64,000 nucleotides of DNA from Fibrobacterota bacterium (GTDB lineage: Bacteria; Fibrobacterota; Chitinivibrionia; Chitinivibrionales; FEN-1185): positions 27,499 to 91,498 of the forward strand of contig PLWQ01000033.1 in NCBI GenBank assembly GCA_003165595.1, in the 5' to 3' direction. The notes beneath the pieces were generated by a model. It searched no databases and had not been told where the DNA came from. It worked only from the letters and a program-made list of their open reading frames with translations. The translations under genes were made by a program, and so were the position numbers. Below are positions 33,445 to 64,000 of this stretch, piece after piece (position 1 is the first letter of the stretch; every line of letters begins with the position of its first letter).

Positions 33445-33518
<74 letters not shown>

Positions 33519-33525
33519 AAAATGG

Positions 33526-33908
<383 letters not shown>

Positions 33909-44554: not shown

Positions 44555-44744
44555 CAAATGCTCCTTGCAAAGGGGATCGTGGGTGCAAAAAGACGGGAAT
44601 CTGCGTCGAAGTAGGAGTCATCAGCCAGTTGTAAGGCGGTTTGCGGTGAACTCCATCACCGTAATTGGACCGGACAGGGACCGTATCGACCCGGGAATTC
44701 GTATTCTAACATGGATGAGGGACGCGCAACGCAAGAAATTTCCG

Positions 44745-54663: not shown

Positions 54664-55494
54664 GTGAACAACAGCGGATATTTGCGATTTATTCCGGCGG
54701 TAAAATCGCCGGAAGAATCGTCGGGTGACCTCTGGTTCGTCTTTCGCGGCGGATCGTTGCTGACTATCGGCGGCGATTCCGACCGGCGGATCCCGCGGCG
54801 GTCGGAGATGCAATCTCTTCTTGAATTGTTGACAGATAAGATTTACCTCGGAACGCTTGACGGCAAAGGCTGCCTGGCTGCGGAACTCAACGGGTCTGCC
54901 GGCCTCACGCCGGGGTTCGAAGCAATTGACCTGCGGAAGCTGCTCGACAGCCTGGACGAAACAACCTTTCTGGCGGCCGGCAGGGCTGCACAACTCCTGG
55001 CATGGCGCAGAAACACCCGGTACTGCGGACGGTGCGGAAAATTGACGGAAGAAAAGCAAGACGAGCGTGCGCGCATTTGCACTGCGTGCGGCCTGTCGTT
55101 TTTCCCGCGCCTGTCGCCCGCGGTGATCGTGGCCGTGGTGCGGGACCGGTCGATTCTGCTCGCCCGGGGGAAAAACTCAACGCTGCCGTTCTGGAGCGTT
55201 CTTGCCGGGTTCGTTGAACCGGGAGAATCGCTGGAACAATGCGTGCGCCGCGAGGTGTTCGAGGAAGTGCGGCTCGCGGTGAAAAACATCCGCTATTTTG
55301 CCAGTCAGCCCTGGCCTTTTCCGGATTCGTTTATGATAGCTTTCACGGCCGAGTACGAGAGCGGCGACATTCATATTGACAACATGGAATTGGAAGCCGC
55401 TGCGTGGTATACGGTGCAGTCGCTGCCGCAGGTTCCGCGGAAGGGATCCGTGTCCAGGCGGCTTATAGATTGGTTTGCAAATACGTACGGATAG
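54664..55494 (+). CDS. nudC: NADH pyrophosphatase / deNADding hydrolase NudC
   Basis: A 276-residue NudC. The zinc ribbon is CGRCGKLTEE...CTACGL, with FFPRLSPAVIV after it. The Nudix box GFVEPGESLEQCVRREVFEEV fits G-x5-E-x7-REUxEE, though the box's last Gly is replaced by Arg (EEVRLAV). The family's array motif SQPWPFPDS is intact. It hydrolyses NAD(H) to NMN and AMP and, in E. coli, removes NAD caps from RNA. GTG 54664 is the start, with a distant AAAGGA. It stands alone between two divergent or unrelated units. Confidence 0.9.
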   Translation: MNNSGYLRFIPAVKSPEESSGDLWFVFRGGSLLTIGGDSDRRIPRRSEMQSLLELLTDKIYLGTLDGKGCLAAELNGSAGLTPGFEAIDLRKLLDSLDETTFLAAGRAAQLLAWRRNTRYCGRCGKLTEEKQDERARICTACGLSFFPRLSPAVIVAVVRDRSILLARGKNSTLPFWSVLAGFVEPGESLEQCVRREVFEEVRLAVKNIRYFASQPWPFPDSFMIAFTAEYESGDIHIDNMELEAAAWYTVQSLPQVPRKGSVSRRLIDWFANTYG

Positions 55495-55790
55495 CATCAG
55501 GGGCTTTCCCGCAGCAGCAGGTGGAAATCGCTGTTGTCAACGCGCCTTTTGAAAAGATCGGCAAATTCCCCTCTGCCCGTGCGCCAGGTTGGACTGCAAG
55601 GCGTGCCAGAGCACGGGGCCGGCCGACCCGGCCGTAGGCATAGGGCGGACCGGCACCGAGGCCGATTGGCCGAGCCTGAAAGGAGAACCGCCACCGTCTT
55701 CGGCGGGGCGCCCATATTCTTTTTCCTGCTTTAAGATCAGCCTGACATCCGGGAATCTCCCGCGGAAATTCTGAATGCAAAAAATTCTTC
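55495..55790. repeat. Intergenic region with family-A GC-rich repeat
   Basis: Between nudC and the ilv promoter. The family-A copy at 55581-55713 is almost identical in plan to the one at 43244-43377: it starts GCGCCAGGTTGGA, contains GGCCGGCCGACCCGGCCG, GGCACCGAGGCCG and GGCCGAGCC, a hairpin CCACCG/CGGCGG, and ends GGGGCGCCC followed by T-rich sequence. No gene is seen. Confidence 0.75.
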
Positions 55791-55819
55791 TTGACCAAAC
55801 AAACATTTCAAGGTATATT
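55791..55819 (+). promoter_or_regulatory. ilv operon promoter
   Basis: TTGACC (55791-55796) and TATATT (55814-55819) are separated by 17 nt, a sound sigma70-type promoter. Transcription would start near 55826, about 15 nt before the leader-peptide ATG. Confidence 0.75.
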
Positions 55820-55840
55820 CTAATCACACAAAGGATCATC

Positions 55841-55939
55841 ATGTTCGCATCATCCAAGAAGAATTCCCTTATTAGCCTCGCTCTCATTTTGAACGTGGTA
55901 GTAGCTATTCTATTGCCGCACAGGGAGACGGGCTTGTAA
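55841..55939 (+). CDS. ilv operon leader peptide
   Basis: A 32-residue open frame (ATG 55841 to TAA 55937) preceded by AAAGGATC. After a short N-terminal part, residues 10-25 read LISLALILNVVVAILL: twelve of sixteen are Leu, Ile or Val, the products of the operon. The stop codon lies 5 nt after the left half of the antiterminator. This is the classic arrangement of a ribosome-mediated attenuator, in which stalling at scarce Leu/Ile/Val codons decides the RNA fold. It is too short to be called by ordinary gene finders. Confidence 0.88.
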   Translation: MFASSKKNSLISLALILNVVVAILLPHRETGL

Positions 55940-55999
55940 GAAAGACAAGCAGAAAATCACAAAGACCCGTCTCCCGAAAAGAGGCGGGTCTTTTTTTTT
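55923..55999 (+). promoter_or_regulatory. Antiterminator/terminator switch of the ilv operon
   Basis: GGGAGACGGG (55923-55932) and CCCGTCTCCC (55966-55975) are perfectly complementary over 10 bp and form the antiterminator. The second arm also begins the terminator: AGACCCGTCTC (55963-55973) pairs with GAGGCGGGTCT (55981-55991) over 11 bp with one G-T pair, followed by nine Ts (55991-55999). The two folds exclude each other. A small hairpin CTTGT/ACAAG lies between them (about 55933-55948). A ribosome at the leader stop would mask 55923-55932 and favour termination. Confidence 0.88.
55963..55999 (+). terminator. ilv leader intrinsic terminator
   Basis: An 11-bp GC-rich stem (extendable by A-T pairs) with loop CCGAAAA, ending in nine consecutive Ts. 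It is placed 143 nt upstream of ilvB and acts inside the leader, not at a gene end. Confidence 0.88.
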
Positions 56000-56141
56000 G
56001 TCATCGGCGCTGCCGCAGCGTCTCTGGAGGCCGGAACCTCATTCCTTGATTACGTACAAGGGAAGAGGTATTTTTGGAGACTCTCTCAAACGGCACTGTG
56101 AAAGCGCTTGACGAGTGCACAATCAACGGCGTGGAGGAAAG

Positions 56142-57872
56142 GTGAAGAAGAAAGGTGCCGAGATTCTGGTTGATGCCCTGATCAAGGAGGGCGTCGATGT
56201 CCTGTTCGGCTATCCGGGCGGACAGGCGATTCCGATTTTTGACGCGTTGTACGATGCGAAGGAACTGTCGGTGGTGCTCGTGCGCCACGAACAGGCGGCG
56301 GCGCACGCGGCCGACGGGTACGCACGCGCAACGGGCAAGGTGGGCGTGTGCATCGCAACGTCGGGTCCGGGCGCAACAAACCTCATTACCGGCATCGCCA
56401 ACGCGTATCTCGATTCCATACCCATGGTTGCGATAACCGGCCAGGTTTCAACGCCCTATCTCGGGACGGACGCATTCCAGGAAGCCGACATGGTGGGCAT
56501 CAGCCGGCCGGTCACCAAGCACAATTTTCTGGTGAAGGATATCCGGGAGCTGCCCGCGATCCTGAAGCAGGCGTTTTACATAGCGCGAACCGGCAGGCCG
56601 GGCCCGGTTCTGGTCGACCTTCCGCAGGACGTTTCCCGCGCGGTTCTTGACGATTACGAGTACCCGCAGGAAATCTCCATGCGCAGCTACAAGCCGACCA
56701 TCGTGGGCCATCCGCGCCAGATCCAGAAGGCCGCCGAGCTTATCAAGACGGCCGAGAGGCCGATGATCTATGCGGGTGGCGGGGTCATTACGTCGGGCGC
56801 GCACGAGGAGCTGTTCGAACTGGCAACCAAGCTCAATGCGCCGGTGACGCTTACCCTCATGGGGCTGGGCGCATTTCCGGGCGAGCATGAACTGTTTATG
56901 GGCATGCCGGGCATGCACGGATCAAAGACCGCGAACCTTGCTTTTCAGGAAGCCGATTTGATTATTTCTGTGGGCGCGCGGTTCGACGACCGGGTTACCG
57001 GTCATGTGGGATCGTTTGCGCCGAAGGCGAAAATCATCCATCTCGACATCGATCCGGCCGCCATATCGAAGATCGTGCGGGTGGACATTCCGGTGGTGGG
57101 CGACGCGAAGAACGTCCTTGCCGCGCTCAACAAGCTTGTGGCGCCGCGCGAGCCCTCCGAATGGAACGAGACCATTAGGAAATGGAAAGACGGGAAGCTG
57201 TTTTCGTACAAGCAGTCCGACAAGGTAATCAAGCCGCAGTACGTGATAGAACAGCTGTACAATTTGACAAAGGACAGTGATGCGCTCATTGCCACGGAGG
57301 TGGGCCAGCATCAGATGTGGACGGCGCAGTACTACCGGTTTGCGCGTCCGCGTACCTTTCTCTCCTCGGGCGGATTGGGAACCATGGGATTCGGCCTGCC
57401 CGCGGCAATGGGGGCGAGCCTCGGCCTCGGAAGGAGAACCGTGGTGGATGTCGCGGGAGACGGCTCTATACAAATGAACATACAGGAGCTTGCGACCATA
57501 GCAATCAACCGCATCCCCGTAAAGGTCGTGATTCTCAACAACGAGTATCTGGGCATGGTGCGGCAGTGGCAGGAAATGTTCTGGAACAAGCGTTACAGTT
57601 CGACATGTCTGCGCGGCGGCACGCTGTGCGACGAGTGCAAAGGCCCCGGCCATTGCAAGATCGCCTATGTCCCGGATTTTGTCAAGCTGGCCGAAAGCTA
57701 CAGCATACCCGGCTTCCGCGCGACCAAGCCGTCCGACGTGGCCGATACGCTCCGGCAGGGGTTGGAGATAGAAGGCCCGGCGCTCATGGAATTCGCGGTT
57801 GCCAACGAAGAGAATGTGTTTCCCATGGTCCCCGCGGGCAAACCGCTCGACCAGGTGATGGAGGAATTATGA
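56142..57872 (+). CDS. ilvB: Acetolactate synthase large subunit IlvB
   Basis: A 576-residue ThDP/FAD enzyme that condenses two pyruvates (or pyruvate and 2-oxobutyrate) in the first committed step of Val/Leu/Ile synthesis. The ThDP glutamate is in VRHEQAAAHAADGYAR, the N-terminal domain begins GYPGGQAIPIFD, the FAD-region has GARFDDRVTG, and the ThDP motif is GDGSIQMNIQEL...NNEYLGMVRQW. GTG 56142 is chosen since GGAGGA stands directly before it. An unusual insertion of four cysteines (C489, C496, C499, C505) follows NKRYSST, before VPDFVKLAE. ilvN overlaps its stop. Confidence 0.96.
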   Translation: MKKKGAEILVDALIKEGVDVLFGYPGGQAIPIFDALYDAKELSVVLVRHEQAAAHAADGYARATGKVGVCIATSGPGATNLITGIANAYLDSIPMVAITGQVSTPYLGTDAFQEADMVGISRPVTKHNFLVKDIRELPAILKQAFYIARTGRPGPVLVDLPQDVSRAVLDDYEYPQEISMRSYKPTIVGHPRQIQKAAELIKTAERPMIYAGGGVITSGAHEELFELATKLNAPVTLTLMGLGAFPGEHELFMGMPGMHGSKTANLAFQEADLIISVGARFDDRVTGHVGSFAPKAKIIHLDIDPAAISKIVRVDIPVVGDAKNVLAALNKLVAPREPSEWNETIRKWKDGKLFSYKQSDKVIKPQYVIEQLYNLTKDSDALIATEVGQHQMWTAQYYRFARPRTFLSSGGLGTMGFGLPAAMGASLGLGRRTVVDVAGDGSIQMNIQELATIAINRIPVKVVILNNEYLGMVRQWQEMFWNKRYSSTCLRGGTLCDECKGPGHCKIAYVPDFVKLAESYSIPGFRATKPSDVADTLRQGLEIEGPALMEFAVANEENVFPMVPAGKPLDQVMEEL

Positions 57873-58351
57873 ACACGCGCACCATTTCGGTCCTTGTCGA
57901 GAATCACAGCGGAACCCTGTCGCGGATATCCGGCCTTTTCGCAAGCCGCGGCTACAACATTTCGAGCTTGACGGTTGGGGAAACAGAAGACCAGTCGATT
58001 TCGCGCATGACCATAGTCGTGGAAGGGGACGACGCGATTATAGAGCAGGTTGTAAAGCAGCTCAACAAGCTCATCGATGTGATCAAGGTGATCGATTTCG
58101 AAGGCAGCCCGGTGATCGAGCGGGAATTTATCCTCGTCCGGGTCGACTCGACGAAGTCGAGCCGGCACGAGATCGTGGAGCTTGCCGACTTGTTCGGCGC
58201 AAAAGTGGCGTACGTGGGTGCCTCGTCCATCACGTTCGAGTTGTGTGCGCCGTGCGACATTATCAACGATTTCATCGTGCTCATCAAACCCTACGGTGTC
58301 AAGGAGCTCATTCGCACGGGCAAGGTTGCAATGGCTCAGGCGAGGAAATAG
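57869..58351 (+). CDS. ilvN: Acetolactate synthase regulatory subunit IlvN
   Basis: A 160-residue small subunit. The N-terminal ACT domain reads ISVLVENHSGTLSRISGLFASRGYNISSLTVG, which binds valine for feedback control, and the C-terminal ALS_ss_C domain includes EREFILVRV and GVKELIRTGKVAMAQ. The start (ATG 57869) overlaps the ilvB stop by 4 nt and follows GGAGGA, so the two subunits are made together. An extension of the frame upstream inside ilvB is a shadow. Confidence 0.96.
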   Translation: MNTRTISVLVENHSGTLSRISGLFASRGYNISSLTVGETEDQSISRMTIVVEGDDAIIEQVVKQLNKLIDVIKVIDFEGSPVIEREFILVRVDSTKSSRHEIVELADLFGAKVAYVGASSITFELCAPCDIINDFIVLIKPYGVKELIRTGKVAMAQARK

Positions 58352-58362
58352 ACAGAGGAAGA

Positions 58363-58444
58363 CCTCACCCCATCGCCCCGGCCTTCGGCCAACCCTCTTC
58401 CCCTCTCCTTGACAAGGAGAGGGGAAGAGGGTAAAGGGGTGAGG
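58363..58444 (+). repeat. Long nested hairpin between ilvN and ilvC
   Basis: CCTCACCCC (58363-58371) pairs with GGGGTGAGG (58436-58444). Inside, CCCTCTTCCCCTCTCCTT (58393-58410) pairs with an 18-nt perfect complement (58414-58431), and a small GGCC/GGCC hairpin is at 58380-58389. There is no T-run, so the structure is likely an mRNA-stabilising or repeat-type element. It separates ilvBN from ilvC in the transcript. Confidence 0.75.
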
Positions 58445-58497
58445 TGGAAATGGAAAACTCACAGTCTTCACCATCATATACAAAGGAGAACGCTCTT

Positions 58498-59598
58498 ATG
58501 GCAGTCATCGATTTCGGCGGAGTCAAGGAAACGGTCGTCACACGCAAAGAATTCCCCCTTGCCAAGGCACGCGCAATGCTCAAGAAGGAAGTTGTTGCCG
58601 TTATCGGGTACGGCGTTCAGGGTCCGGCCCAGTCGCTTAACATGAAGGACAACGGCATCAACGTTATTATCGGCCAGGCAAAGGAATACAAGAAGGACTG
58701 GGACCGGGCGGTACGGGACGGCTGGGTTCCCGGCAAGACGCTGTTCCCGATTGAGGAAGCGGTCCAGCGCGGTACCATTATCCAGATGCTGGTCTCCGAT
58801 GCGGCGCAGCGCAAGATATGGCCAACGGTCAAGAAGTTTCTCAAACCGGGCGATGCGCTGTACTTTTCGCACGGATTCTCTATTGTTTATAAGGAACAGA
58901 CCGGCGTGATCCCGCCCAAGAATGTTGACGTCATCATGGTTGCGCCCAAAGGCAGCGGCACCTCTGTGCGACGCAATTTCCTGAGCGGCGCGGGCATCAA
59001 TTCGAGCTTCGCCGTGTTCCAGGACGCAACCGGCTGCGCCGCAGATCGCTGCATGGCGGTCGGCATCGCAATCGGATCGGGATATCTCTTCCCGACCACG
59101 TTCAAGAATGAAGTGTACAGCGACCTCACTGGAGAACGCGGCGTGCTCATGGGCGCGCTGGCCGGCATCATGCAGGCCCAATACGACGTGCTCCGCAGGA
59201 ACGGTCATTCACCGTCCGAGGCCTTCAACGAGACGTCGGAAGAGCTCACGCAGAGCCTCATCCGTCTTGTTGACGAAAACGGAATGGACTGGATGTACTC
59301 GAACTGTTCGGTAACCGCGCAGCACGGTGCACTCAAATGGAGGCCCATTTTCCGCAGCGCGAACCTGCCGGTATTCGAAAAACTTTACAAATCGGTAAAG
59401 ACGGGTCAGGAGACGCGTGAAGTGCTCCGGGATTGCAGCGGCAAGGACTACCAGAAGTTCCTGAGCAAGAAACTTGGCGAGATTCACGACTCGGAGATGT
59501 GGCGGACCGGTGCAGCCGTGAGGGCCCTGCGGCCACGTGAAAAAGCGAAGGCCATTTCCGCGGGGACCAAAGGAATAGGTGGACGGGGACAGAATTAA
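58498..59598 (+). CDS. ilvC: Ketol-acid reductoisomerase IlvC
   Basis: A 366-residue enzyme that isomerises and reduces acetohydroxy acids with NADPH and Mg2+. The nucleotide-binding motif is GYGVQGPAQSLN, followed by KTLFPIEEAVQRGTIIQMLVSDAAQ, LYFSHGFS and VAPKGSGTSVRR. The Mg2+-site region is EVYSDLTGERGVLMGALAG...SEAFNETSEELTQSL. The whole reads closer to the yeast Ilv5/Bacteroidetes type (MDWMYSNCSVTAQHGALKW, then PVFEKLY) than to the short E. coli or Bacillus types. ATG 58498 follows AAAGGAG. Confidence 0.95.
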   Translation: MAVIDFGGVKETVVTRKEFPLAKARAMLKKEVVAVIGYGVQGPAQSLNMKDNGINVIIGQAKEYKKDWDRAVRDGWVPGKTLFPIEEAVQRGTIIQMLVSDAAQRKIWPTVKKFLKPGDALYFSHGFSIVYKEQTGVIPPKNVDVIMVAPKGSGTSVRRNFLSGAGINSSFAVFQDATGCAADRCMAVGIAIGSGYLFPTTFKNEVYSDLTGERGVLMGALAGIMQAQYDVLRRNGHSPSEAFNETSEELTQSLIRLVDENGMDWMYSNCSVTAQHGALKWRPIFRSANLPVFEKLYKSVKTGQETREVLRDCSGKDYQKFLSKKLGEIHDSEMWRTGAAVRALRPREKAKAISAGTKGIGGRGQN

Positions 59599-59606
59599 TA
59601 ACAATG

Positions 59607-59634
59607 GTAGGGGTTGAAAATTTTCAACCCCTAC
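59607..59634. repeat. Perfect 28-nt palindrome between ilvC and leuA
   Basis: GTAGGGGTTGAAAA is followed at once by its exact complement TTTTCAACCCCTAC. The centre AAAATTTT and the GTAGGGG/CCCCTAC ends match the core of the palindrome at 38546-38591. It lies 8 nt after the ilvC stop. Confidence 0.85.
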
Positions 59635-59654
59635 AACAAGAACCCAGGACAATC

Positions 59655-61196
59655 ATGAAAGACAAAGTATTGATATTCGACACCACGCTGCGGGACGGCG
59701 AGCAGGCGCTGGCATCAAGCCTGTCGGTGGACCAGAAACTGCGCATTGCGCGGCAGCTGGCGCGGCTCAGGGTCGACATCATCGAGGCCGGCTTTCCCAT
59801 CAGTTCGCCGGGCGATTTCGAGAGCGTGTCGACCATTGCGCACGAAATAGAAGGTCCCGTGATTTGCGGCCTGGCGCGGCTTATCGACAAAGACATTGTC
59901 GCATGCGGTAAGGCGCTGGCGGGCGCGGCGCGGCCCAGGATACACACGTTTGTGGGAACGTCGGCGATCCACATGGAAAAGAAACTGCGCAAAACCAACG
60001 ACGAAGTCGTTGCAATGGCGGTGCACGCCATCAAGCTGTGCCGCAAATTCTGCGACGACGTGGAATTTTCTCCCGAAGACGCGGGCCGCACCGAGATAGA
60101 TTTTCTGTGCCGCATCGTGGAGGCGGCGATCAAGTCCGGCGCTACCACCATCAATATTCCCGACACGGTGGGATACACCACGCCGGAAAAGTTCGCCTGG
60201 ATAATCGACTCGGTATTCAACCGCGTGCCCAACGTCGACAAGGCGGTAATTTCGGTGCATTGCCACAACGACCTGGGCATGGCGACCGCCAACTCGGTGA
60301 CCGCGGTTGCCCACGGCGCGCGCCAGGTGGAATGCGCCGTCAACGGGCTGGGCGAGCGCGCCGGCAACGCCGCGCTGGAAGAAGTGGTGATGACGCTTGA
60401 CGTTCGCAAAGACCTGTTCAACCTGTCGGTGGGCGTTGACACGCGTGAAATCATGCGCACGAGCAAACTCGTGCGAGACGTGTGCAACATGCCGGTGCAG
60501 CCCAACAAGGCCGTGGTGGGGAGCAACGCGTTCGCGCATTCGTCGGGCATTCACCAGGACGGGGTGCTCAAGTCGCGCAAGACCTACGAGATCATGACGC
60601 CGCAATCGATCGGCCTGTCCGACAACCGGATGAACCTCACGAGCCGGTCCGGCAGCCACATGGTGAAGTCGCGGCTGATGGCGCTGGGATACAACGAGAA
60701 GGAATTCGACATCGAGGCGTTTTACAAACGTTTTATCGAACTGGCCGACAAAAAAGGAACGGTCTACGACGACGACCTGGTGTCGCTTATGGAATCAAAG
60801 GGCGAATCCGACATGACCGACGCGTTTTCGCTCGACTATCTCAATGTGTCGAGCGGCAAAGGCACGGTGCCCACGGCAACGGTGCGAATTGTCGCGCGCG
60901 GGAAAGTGTCCATGGAAGCGGCTTGCGGCGACGGCGCGGTCGACGCGGCAACAAAAGCCATCGACCGGATCACGGGCTATTCGATAGCCATTGAGGATTT
61001 TTCCCTCACCTCGCTCACCGAAGGCAGGGAAGCGCTGGGCAAGGTGAAGATCGTGGCGCGCGCCAACGAAGGGGTTTTCACCGGCATCGGCACAAGCACC
61101 GACATCGTGGAGGCGTCGGCGCTGGCGTACATGGACGTTGTCAACAAGATCGCGCGGATGAAGAAGTTCAAGAAGAAATTGCCCAACGCTAAGTAG
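59655..61196 (+). CDS. leuA: 2-isopropylmalate synthase LeuA
   Basis: A 513-residue enzyme that condenses acetyl-CoA with 2-oxoisovalerate, the first step of leucine synthesis. The HMGL TIM barrel starts FDTTLRDGEQALASSLSV (about 8-25), has the metal-binding HCHNDLGMATAN (about 210) and NGLGERAGNAALEEV. A complete C-terminal regulatory domain (about 385-510), with ATVRIVARGKVSMEAACGDG, gives leucine feedback. This is the long form of LeuA. ATG 59655 follows AGGA. Confidence 0.96.
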   Translation: MKDKVLIFDTTLRDGEQALASSLSVDQKLRIARQLARLRVDIIEAGFPISSPGDFESVSTIAHEIEGPVICGLARLIDKDIVACGKALAGAARPRIHTFVGTSAIHMEKKLRKTNDEVVAMAVHAIKLCRKFCDDVEFSPEDAGRTEIDFLCRIVEAAIKSGATTINIPDTVGYTTPEKFAWIIDSVFNRVPNVDKAVISVHCHNDLGMATANSVTAVAHGARQVECAVNGLGERAGNAALEEVVMTLDVRKDLFNLSVGVDTREIMRTSKLVRDVCNMPVQPNKAVVGSNAFAHSSGIHQDGVLKSRKTYEIMTPQSIGLSDNRMNLTSRSGSHMVKSRLMALGYNEKEFDIEAFYKRFIELADKKGTVYDDDLVSLMESKGESDMTDAFSLDYLNVSSGKGTVPTATVRIVARGKVSMEAACGDGAVDAATKAIDRITGYSIAIEDFSLTSLTEGREALGKVKIVARANEGVFTGIGTSTDIVEASALAYMDVVNKIARMKKFKKKLPNAK

Positions 61197-61684
61197 AAAT
61201 GCTTTTAGGCGGGGGAAGTTTCCCCCTGGCCCCAAGCCTCCTCACCGCGCTTCGCGCGTCTGCGGGGTCTTGGGGCACACCGCCTCCGCAGGTGGCCCCC
61301 TTGAAGGTGAAGCGGCGAGACCGCAGCTCTGCTGCGGGGGCACCCAGAGACGGCAGTTGAAAGGGTTGACGAGTAGACGCGTAAACGGGTAAACAAAATA
61401 GTAAGAGGTTTCGGTTGATAGTTGATGCCATACCGCAGAGAAGGCGTTGCGGGAACGCGACGCGCGCGCGTCGTGAGCGGTGCGCATCGCGCGCGGTCCC
61501 GCTGGAAAGGGTGTGCCCCCGGATCGCCGGCGTGTAGCGCCGGAGCCGAAGGCCAGGACGGCCGAGAGGCGACCTGCAAAGCAGGGGCCGACAGGCCACC
61601 GAGCGGGATGCGAGGTGCAACCCGGGGGCCAGGGGAAACCGTGCGGCGGTGTCCCCACCAGACGAAATAGCTGGATTTACAAGT
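61197..61684. repeat. Repeat-filled intergenic region (families B and C)
   Basis: A 488-nt gap after leuA without a credible gene. A family-B repeat occupies about 61203-61355, in gene orientation and 7 nt after the stop: GCTTTTAGGCGGGGGAAG, TTTCCCCC, AGCC, CTGCGGGGTCT and GGTGGCCCCC. After an 80-nt AT-richer spacer, a family-C repeat (about 61437-61667) follows: AAGGCGTTGCGGGAACGCGACGCG, GCTGGAAAGGGTGTG, and a final AGGGGAAACCG...GTGTCCCCACCAG block. Confidence 0.7.
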
Positions 61685-62608
61685 ATGAACCATCCACTCG
61701 CATTATCAAGAATTAAAACCGGGCTGGTCCTCATCGACATTCAGGACAAGTTCGCTTCGGCCATTCCCGGGTTCGACGGGCTGGTCGCGAACGCGGCCAG
61801 GCTTGTGCTCACGTTTCAGATGTACAAACTTCCCGTTGTGGTAACCGAGCAGTATCCCAAAGGCCTGGGAACCACGGTGGAGAAATTGCGCGCGCTGTTT
61901 CCCATGTTCGAGGCGATCGAGAAAATGGAGCTGTCCGCGGCCGACAACCAGGCGTTTGCAAACCGCGTGCGCGAGCTCGGGATCGAAACCTTTGTCGTGT
62001 GCGGAATCGAGACGCACGTCTGTGTAAACCAGACCGTTCTTGGTCTGCTGGCGCAGGGCGCAACCGTGCACGTTCCTGCCGATGCAGTCGGGTCGCGGCA
62101 TCGTCTCGATCATGATATTACGCTCAGAAAAATGGAGCAGGCCGGGGCGATAATCTCCACGACGGAGACGTGCCTGTTTGAGCTTGTGGAGCGCGCGGGC
62201 GGCCAGGATTTCAAGAACATCCAGCGCATGGTCAAGGGTCGGCTTCGGGACACGGGGCATGCGGCAACCGCTCGGCCCGTTCCCGCGATGCCGGCCGCAG
62301 CAGCCGGGCCCGAGCCCTTGCCGGAACCGGTTCTCACCGAGTCGAATGGCGATGCGCCGGTTACTACCGAGGAACTTGGCAATTCTTTACCGGCGCCGAA
62401 ACCGCCTGAGGTCGCCCCGGAAAAGGATGACTCGGTTGTTGACGCCATGCTTGATTCGATCGACAAGAAAGTGGAAGCTCTCGATCCGATCGGTGGGGCG
62501 GACTTTGATCTGGACAAGGACATTGCCGATCTCGACAGTCTCCTCAAAGTCGACGGCATCGAGAGCGAGCCTTTGAAGCTAGACGATGACGAGAAACCCG
62601 GCGCATAG
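61685..62608 (+). CDS. Isochorismatase-family (YcaC-like) hydrolase with C-terminal extension
   Basis: A 307-residue protein. Residues 1-185 form an isochorismatase-like hydrolase: catalytic Asp in LVLIDIQDKF (D18), Lys in AIEKMELSA, and nucleophile C113 in CGIETHVCVNQT. Residues 186-307 are a separate Pro/Ala/Glu-rich segment, then an acidic region rich in Leu-Asp (SVVDAMLDSIDKKVEALD, DLDKDIADLDSLLKVD), not normally part of the family. ATG 61685 is used; its ribosome site is weak. It lies between leuA and leuB, but isochorismatase-type chemistry has no known step in leucine synthesis. Function unknown. Confidence 0.8.
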   Translation: MNHPLALSRIKTGLVLIDIQDKFASAIPGFDGLVANAARLVLTFQMYKLPVVVTEQYPKGLGTTVEKLRALFPMFEAIEKMELSAADNQAFANRVRELGIETFVVCGIETHVCVNQTVLGLLAQGATVHVPADAVGSRHRLDHDITLRKMEQAGAIISTTETCLFELVERAGGQDFKNIQRMVKGRLRDTGHAATARPVPAMPAAAAGPEPLPEPVLTESNGDAPVTTEELGNSLPAPKPPEVAPEKDDSVVDAMLDSIDKKVEALDPIGGADFDLDKDIADLDSLLKVDGIESEPLKLDDDEKPGA

Positions 62609-62666
62609 TGTGGGCGCGAAGGGTGGAGTTGCGGATATTCACAGTGTAACGAACGGAGAATCTTCA

Positions 62667-63731
62667 ATGAAATCGTACAACATCGCCGTCATCCCCGGCG
62701 ACGGAACCGGCCCGGAAGTAGTGAGGGAGGGCCTCAAAGTCCTCAACGTTGCCGCGGCAAAGTACAACCTGAAATTGAATTTTGTAAACTATGATTTCGG
62801 AGGTGAGCGCTATTTGAAAACCGGCGAGACGCTGCCCGACAGCGCCATCGAAGAACTCCGCAAGCACGACTCGATTTTTCTGGGTGCCATCGGACATCCG
62901 GACGTAAAACCGGGCGTCCTGGAAACGGGCATCCTGCTCAAGGCGAGATTCGCGCTCGATCAGTACATCAATTTGCGGCCTGTCAAGCTTTATCCGAATG
63001 TGGAAACGCCGCTCAAAGACAAGGGGCCCGAGCATATCGACTTCGTGGTGATACGTGAAAATACGGGCGGCATCTACACCGGGGTGGGCGGGACAATGCA
63101 AAAAGGAACGCCGCTTGAGGTCGCGACGCAGGTGATGCTGTACTCCCGGCCCATGGTTGAGCGGTGTATGCGCTACGCCTACGAGTTCACGCGCAAGCGG
63201 AACAGGCGCAAACTGCTCACGCTGGTGCACAAGTGCAACGTGCTCACCTACACCGGCGATTTATGGGTGCGCGTGCACAAGGAAATGGGCGACAAAGACT
63301 ATCCGGACATCAAACAGGACTACAATCATGTTGACGCATGCACAATGTGGTTTGTGAAGAGCCCGGAATTCTACGACGTGATCGTCACCGAAAACCTGTT
63401 CGGCGACATCATCACCGATCTTGCGGCCATGATTCAGGGCGGCCTGGGCATCGCGGCCGGCGGCAACATCAACCCCGAGGGCGTATCGATGTTCGAGCCC
63501 ATGGGCGGCAGCGCACCCAAATACACGGGCAAGAACGTAATCAACCCGCTCGCCGCGATTTCGGCGGCAGGCATGATGCTCGAGACGATCGGCGAGCCGG
63601 CAGCGGGCAACGCCGTGGAAAGGGCCGTGCACGATTCGCTGGCATCGGGCAAAATCAAGAGCCTCGCGGCCGGCAAGATGGGAATGGGGACTACGGAAGT
63701 TGGGGATTTTGTAGCGACATTTGTCAAGTGA
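62667..63731 (+). CDS. leuB: 3-isopropylmalate dehydrogenase LeuB
   Basis: A 354-residue beta-decarboxylating dehydrogenase. Typical elements: IAVIPGDGTGPEVVREGLKVL, IFLGAIGHPDVKPG, ALDQYINLRPVKLYP, the substrate site VVIRENTGGIYTG, and the metal/NAD region ENLFGDIITDLAAMIQGGLGIA...PMGGSAPKYTGKN. It converts 3-isopropylmalate to 2-oxoisocaproate precursor with NAD+. Homologous isocitrate and tartrate dehydrogenases cannot be fully excluded, but the leuA context supports LeuB. ATG 62667 follows GGAG. leuC and leuD are not in the window. Confidence 0.88.
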   Translation: MKSYNIAVIPGDGTGPEVVREGLKVLNVAAAKYNLKLNFVNYDFGGERYLKTGETLPDSAIEELRKHDSIFLGAIGHPDVKPGVLETGILLKARFALDQYINLRPVKLYPNVETPLKDKGPEHIDFVVIRENTGGIYTGVGGTMQKGTPLEVATQVMLYSRPMVERCMRYAYEFTRKRNRRKLLTLVHKCNVLTYTGDLWVRVHKEMGDKDYPDIKQDYNHVDACTMWFVKSPEFYDVIVTENLFGDIITDLAAMIQGGLGIAAGGNINPEGVSMFEPMGGSAPKYTGKNVINPLAAISAAGMMLETIGEPAAGNAVERAVHDSLASGKIKSLAAGKMGMGTTEVGDFVATFVK

Positions 63732-64000
63732 AATGCAAAGGCTTTTGGGTGGGGGAAGTGTGCTTTCCGCCCTTTCCGTTGGACGGGCACAATCCCTCGC
63801 TTCAGCCGCCTTCGGCGTCTTCCGCCACCCCCTCGTGGGTGGCCCCCAAGAAAGAGTGGCTGCGAAACGAGACACCGGCTCGGGGGCGCCCAGAAGCAGT
63901 AGTTGGTGGGGAGGACGTGTAAACGCGGGATGGGCTTTTTGGAAGGCTGCGAAGCGGCCTACCAATGAGAAGGCGTTGCGGAAACACAACACTCGCGTTG
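63732..64000 (+). repeat. Family-B then family-C repeats after leuB
   Basis: After the leuB stop, a family-B copy starts at about 63744 (GGCTTTTGGGTGGGGGAAG, TTTCCGCCC, AGCCGCC, ACCCCCTCGTGGGTGGCCCCC, ending GGGGGCGCCCAGAAG near 63900). A spacer with GACGTGTAAACGCGGGATG follows, then the start of a family-C copy at about 63969 (GAAGGCGTTGCGGAAACAC) that is cut by the window end. The order is the same as after leuA. No gene is seen. Confidence 0.65.

Follow-up and report, generated by a model that had tools for sequence, protein, structure and literature searches.

The ilvB-ilvN-ilvC-leuA-leuB operon of the apparently uncultured Fibrobacterota bacterium studied here is very likely controlled by ribosome-mediated transcription attenuation in its four-segment form, and a second promoter probably follows the attenuator. 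The operon lies in the window, the whole stretch of 64,000 nt that was analysed, which stems from a genome of 5.39 Mb in 42 contigs. A preliminary description had proposed peptide-dependent transcription attenuation in front of ilvB. This was by far the best explanation, as the leader codons and RNA arms are kept in relatives and both helices co-vary. The FCB-like host assumed in that description was correct, since Chitinivibrionia belong to the Fibrobacterota within the FCB group. The proposed extent of 55791-56000 contains all the parts that had been named, but relevant features run past 56000, namely a promoter-like element at 56046-56074.

The first gene of the operon is ilvB (56142-57872) for the large subunit of acetolactate synthase (TIGR00118, 817 bits, cut-off 538), which starts with GTG and has the Shine-Dalgarno sequence GGAGGAA at 56133-56139. 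It is followed by ilvN for the small subunit (57869-58351), named from inspection of the sequence and from its position; the ilvN frame overlaps the ilvB stop codon, and the gene adjoins ilvB in relatives too. Further downstream are ilvC for ketol-acid reductoisomerase (58498-59598; TIGR00465, 307 bits, cut-off 226), leuA for 2-isopropylmalate synthase (59655-61196; TIGR00973, 721 bits, cut-off 599) and leuB for 3-isopropylmalate dehydrogenase (62667-63731; NF002898, 492 bits, cut-off 393, and conserved order). All five genes are on the + strand. The same order was kept in genomes G022, G010, G006, G011, G003, G032 and G027, which agrees with the view that the operon continues into leuA and leuB. 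This continuation is interrupted by a gap of 0.45 kb and an isochorismatase-like gene (61685-62608) between leuA and leuB, and the latter was also present in G006 and G011. Genome G013 lacks ilvC and leuB at this locus, and the operon genes are rearranged in G166, which is outside the order and has no attenuator.

The leader has its own promoter, P1, with the sequence TTGACC-17-TATATT at 55791-55819 of the + strand, exactly as previously described. It was the sole + strand match of our promoter scan within 55300-64000, and its start site is predicted at about 55826. A Shine-Dalgarno-like AAAGGA (55830-55835, + strand) is located 5 nt before the ATG of the leader frame MFASSKKNSLISLALILNVVVAILLPHRETGL (55841-55939, + strand), which comprises 32 codons and a TAA stop codon and was recognised from the sequence and from relatives. 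Twelve of the 16 codons from codon 10 to codon 25 (55868-55915) are Leu, Ile or Val codons, in accordance with the earlier count, and the frame is thus predicted to be a short translated frame with clustered regulated codons. A scan for Leu/Ile/Val-rich ATG frames followed by a terminator gave exactly one match on both strands of the window. The same scan over about 350,000 strand-bases, comprising the window and nine relative loci, found ilvB leaders only.

The leader frame is followed by a predicted intrinsic terminator between the leader and the first structural gene, as had been claimed. Its 13-bp stem spans 55961-55993 and runs into nine Ts (55991-55999), with a folding energy of -21.1 kcal/mol and a z value of -5.2. 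The 5' side of the terminator (segment 3, 55961-55975, core 55966-55975) co-varies with the segments 2 and 4; the 3' side with the T run at its end (segment 4, 55981-55999) was defined by folding and scan. The perfect 10-bp antiterminator reported before was borne out: GGGAGACGGG (55923-55932) and CCCGTCTCCC (55966-55975) form 10 of 10 Watson-Crick pairs. The upstream arm is the core of segment 2, GGGAGACGGGCTTGTAAG (55923-55940), which was delimited by comparison of genomes and passes through the stop codon. The antiterminator would exclude the terminator, and its upstream arm is placed where a ribosome that has reached the stop codon could cover it. All elements named in the preliminary description were therefore present, but it had overlooked a further pairing, in which segment 1, CTTATTAGCCTCGCTCTC (55868-55885), acts as a putative anti-antiterminator by pairing with segment 2 (duplex of -21.3 kcal/mol). 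All four segments are on the + strand.

Folding of the leader in its different states, which had been suggested as a check, supported this arrangement. When the leader was folded without segment 3, the early codons at 55868-55885 paired with 55923-55940, a stretch that covers arm 2 and the stop codon and ends at the base after it. With segment 3 added and segment 4 still missing, the 2:3 helix displaced 1:2 in the window with a probability of 0.97, and the full leader returned to 1:2 plus 3:4. This succession is the classical four-segment logic. The complete four-segment form including the 1:2 pairing thus appears to be in place, although 1:2 is less well proven pair by pair than 2:3 and 3:4.

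In the proposed mechanism RNA polymerase would start at P1, and the 32 codons of the leader would be translated by a ribosome. Shortage of charged tRNA for Leu, Ile or Val would stall this ribosome at codons 10-25, where it blocks segment 1, so that segment 2 is free to form 2:3, the terminator is avoided and the operon genes are transcribed. With an ample supply of all three, the ribosome would reach the stop codon and cover segment 2, 3:4 would form, and transcription would end in vivo within the nine Ts. An untranslated leader would form 1:2 and, as a consequence, 3:4 would terminate again. Transcripts from the second promoter would evade the switch and provide a basal level. Anatomy alone is not proof of such control, because the similar ilvB leader of Streptomyces coelicolor did not respond to changes of the control codons, according to the account cited in PMC1262725.

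Most genomes of the order and of the phylum have an ilvB orthologue. Among the 35 members of the order with readable DNA upstream of ilvB, 33 had the device consisting of leader, arm and terminator in this position. The leader was Leu/Ile/Val-rich in all 33 genomes and contained all three residues in 31 of them, and multivalent control by Leu, Ile and Val, as suggested earlier, is well supported as a prediction by these codons. Both exceptions, with ilvB but without leader and terminator, belong to the termite-gut genus g8 (L114 in G008 and L033 in G018), where the device was perhaps lost under a steady supply of amino acids. Apart from g8, the joint loss of leader codons and arms named beforehand as an argument against attenuation was not seen in relatives. 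Leader and terminator were found in none of 28 ilvB upstream regions of at least 500 nt from other families of the phylum, and we rejected a phylum-wide device for this reason.

Both helices co-vary in the 33 genomes. For the antiterminator 2:3, 93% of cells were paired and 29 double-change cells were counted, compared to 8.7 +/- 2.4 after shuffling (0/2000); arm 2 was misplaced by the MAFFT alignment in G013, G016 and G020 and was set by hand in these three, which introduces a mild bias. For the terminator 3:4, 92% of cells were paired, with 31 double-change cells compared to 13.1 +/- 3.2 (0/2000). When only one genome per genus was used and whole arms were swapped between genera, the values were 16 versus 5.5 for 2:3 and 20 versus 9.1 for 3:4 (0/5000 each). 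In G010, G036 and G026, segment 3 has CCTG in place of CCCG, and segments 2 and 4 both have CAGG in place of CGGG accordingly. One base is hence held by two mutually exclusive partners, as the C-to-T exchange is met by G-to-A exchanges on both sides. Imperfect 2:3 helices occur in G023, G034, G017 and G030. For 1:2, pairing of segment 1 with the nucleotides following arm 2 of the same genome gave -7.3 kcal/mol over the 33 genomes, versus -5.7 +/- 0.3 kcal/mol for permuted combinations (0/20,000). Arm 2 paired upstream with a mean probability of 0.78, versus 0.57 for shuffled leaders.

These data also bear on a rival explanation, according to which a real intrinsic terminator stops upstream transcription, the gene for a small hydrophobic peptide stands before it by chance or for an unrelated reason, and there is no regulation. 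The terminator is strong, and hydrophobic peptides resembling the leader are common as membrane peptides. The leader does have the hydrophobic composition of a small membrane peptide, which counts against an attenuator, but a membrane peptide leaves the co-varying RNA arms unexplained. The leader arm and the 5' side of the terminator co-vary across 20 genera, the arm keeps a nearly constant distance to the stop codon, a promoter of its own precedes the leader, and the arrangement occurred solely before ilvB in the DNA scanned. Given the co-variation, we regard an unregulated terminator as strongly disfavoured and very improbable. A leader arising by chance was rejected because the match in the formal window scan was unique, the device was found in 33 of 35 order members and the arms co-vary. 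The RETG-like motif at the C-terminus of the leader peptide is best explained as arising from the RNA arm encoded there.

The spacing within the leader fits an attenuator operated by a ribosome. The last Leu/Ile/Val codon is separated from arm 2 by a median of 10 nt (range 3-17) and by 7 nt in the window. The distance from the start of arm 2 to the stop codon is 14 nt in most genomes (median 14), and it lies between 1 and 17 nt in every genome but G013. A ribosome reaches roughly 10-14 nt past its A site. With this reach, a stall on the control codons would free most of arm 2, and a ribosome at the stop codon would cover it. The geometry is different in family f7 (G013, G016, G020), where the start of the arm coincides with the stop codon or comes after it.

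A terminator and an antiterminator before an amino acid operon are also the layout of a T-box or riboswitch, which would sense tRNA or a metabolite directly with no ribosome on the leader. The T-box model of Rfam did not match the leader at the gathering score and was not in the permissive list either. No other Rfam family reached the gathering score for the leader; the families of attenuator leaders stayed below their cut-offs, with Thr_leader at 19.7 bits versus 55 for gathering. What is conserved are codons and the spacing to the stop codon, and no aptamer. We rejected direct sensing by the RNA on the basis of the Rfam thresholds and consider it even less probable than an unregulated terminator.

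Behind the terminator of the attenuator, a second promoter-like element, P2 (TTGATT-17-TATTTT, 56046-56074, + strand), precedes ilvB. It was detected in 21 of the 33 genomes, compared to 0.05 expected from shuffles. Its -35 and -10 sequences TTGATT and TATTTT are near-invariant, and the tight pattern occurs 0-3 times per genome with the ilvB site included, so that it is nearly unique. P2 as a copy of a common housekeeping promoter was rejected because of this low number. P2 is probably a bypass promoter giving expression outside the switch. It had been proposed that one switch could set the whole pathway; the extent of the operon agrees with this, but the statement is likely too strong, since P2 is located downstream of the terminator and probably bypasses it. 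As P2 is more constant in sequence than P1, it may instead have another protein-binding role.

The attenuator could also be real but minor, with P2 driving most ilvB transcription during ordinary growth and the attenuated P1 transcript mainly adding a boost during starvation. This is compatible with the attenuator described above and differs from it in weight. The presence of P2 in 21 genomes, its near-invariant boxes, its near-uniqueness and the fit of TATTTT to the TAnnTT of the P1 -10 box speak for it. The P2 start is only a predicted one, and P2 was not found in most members of genus g4 and family f7 nor in G003 and G009, which would leave the attenuated route alone there. On balance, a minor role of the attenuator is possible but rather doubtful.

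A TTG-type -35 region and a TAnnTT -10 region were located upstream of the leader in 29 of the 33 genomes. The search forced the TA and the final T of the -10 region and left only the T at position 5 unforced, and this T was present in 29 of 29 P1 sites. All P1 -10 boxes, at 55814-55819 in the window and in 29 relatives, fit TAnnTT, and the P2 -10 box at 56069-56074 is alike. The promoter element of Bacteroidota is TAnnTTTG. The TAnnTT boxes are nearer to this element than to TATAAT, yet they have a TTG -35 region at 17 nt, possibly reflecting a promoter grammar of the lineage. In most f2 and f3 relatives 6-9 nt separate the end of the -10 box from the leader ATG, and a leaderless leader mRNA is therefore predicted for them. 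In the window the -10 box ends 21 nt before the ATG, which leaves a short 5' UTR with AAAGGA, and a leaderless state is not clear here.

The attenuators of the enteric ilvBN, ilvGMEDA and leu operons consist of a residue-rich leader peptide, alternating RNA segments and a terminator with a U run. The device described here shares all of these features and the position before a branched-chain operon. It differs in its phylum, in the joining of ilv and leu genes in one operon and in the conserved promoter-like site after the terminator. Similar arrangements of a short Leu/Val/Ile frame and overlapping antiterminator and terminator before ilvB are known from ilvB1 of Mycobacterium tuberculosis (PMC13236596) and ilvBNC of Corynebacterium (PMC11857589, PMC10272879), both Actinobacteria. 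The ilvB1 leader has four regulatory codons (LVVI) compared to twelve here, and the ilvB attenuator of C. glutamicum has an anti-antiterminator, as in our case. An mRNA that begins with the leader frame, as predicted for most relatives, resembles the leaderless mycobacterial cysteine attenuators (Canestrari 2020, as cited in PMC13236596); those are described there as acting on cysteine genes by translation attenuation, and the window leader has a short 5' UTR. At the time of a survey from 2010, leader peptides were known only from Proteobacteria and Actinobacteria, and the survey extended them to Firmicutes (PMC2965389). Our literature search, with incomplete coverage, found no paper on leader-peptide attenuation in Fibrobacter or Fibrobacterota. 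The mechanism is classical, of the enteric and actinobacterial ilv kind (PMC13236596, PMC11857589, PMC1262725), and as we found no earlier description in Fibrobacterota, we regard it as a known mechanism in a new phylum.

Leader-peptide attenuation is thereby extended to a phylum of the FCB group with comparative evidence from 33 genomes, which form a natural set of variants with co-varying arms and a fixed spacing for the ribosome. A prediction from the device is that the coupling of transcription and translation in this lineage is tight enough to permit attenuation. Limitation of branched-chain amino acids in uncultured bacteria may also be easy to read out through it. As a tentative and rather uncertain reading, the lineage may have a dual design of independent origin in Fibrobacterota, in which a lineage-wide, multivalent, mostly leaderless four-segment attenuator is combined with a dedicated near-invariant bypass promoter and has a counterpart, once in tandem, at a second AHAS operon.

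At this second operon, four loci of relatives (L133, L136, L137, L138) carry a paralogous AHAS gene with a Val-rich leader and a terminator, and the arm spans the stop codon (CCG TAG GGG). L138 (G021:C315:31700-33000) has two complete leader/antiterminator/terminator modules in tandem, and L136 a second terminator without leader. Two leader frames in series, as in L138, are also known from Salmonella mgtCBR (PMC3641672), which responds to different signals; the tandem is absent from the window. In about 20 genomes per gene, with a few loci clipped at contig ends, the regions before hisG and trpE showed no His- or Trp-rich leader with a convincing terminator, and general leader attenuation in the order was rejected on this basis. 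A TTG-start frame with two Trp codons was seen before a hairpin at L221. Within 500 nt upstream of ilvB, a Leu/Ile/Val-rich leader with a terminator was present at 4 of 74 loci of other groups, from a Victivallis MAG, a PVC-group MAG, a Kiritimatiellota MAG and a Deltaproteobacteria MAG (L071, L082, L062, L085). This suggests leader-peptide attenuation in PVC bacteria too. Elsewhere in the window, the - strand harbors a fluoride riboswitch (RF01734, 57.8 bits, 44605-44669) and two adjacent tRNA genes (33445-33599).
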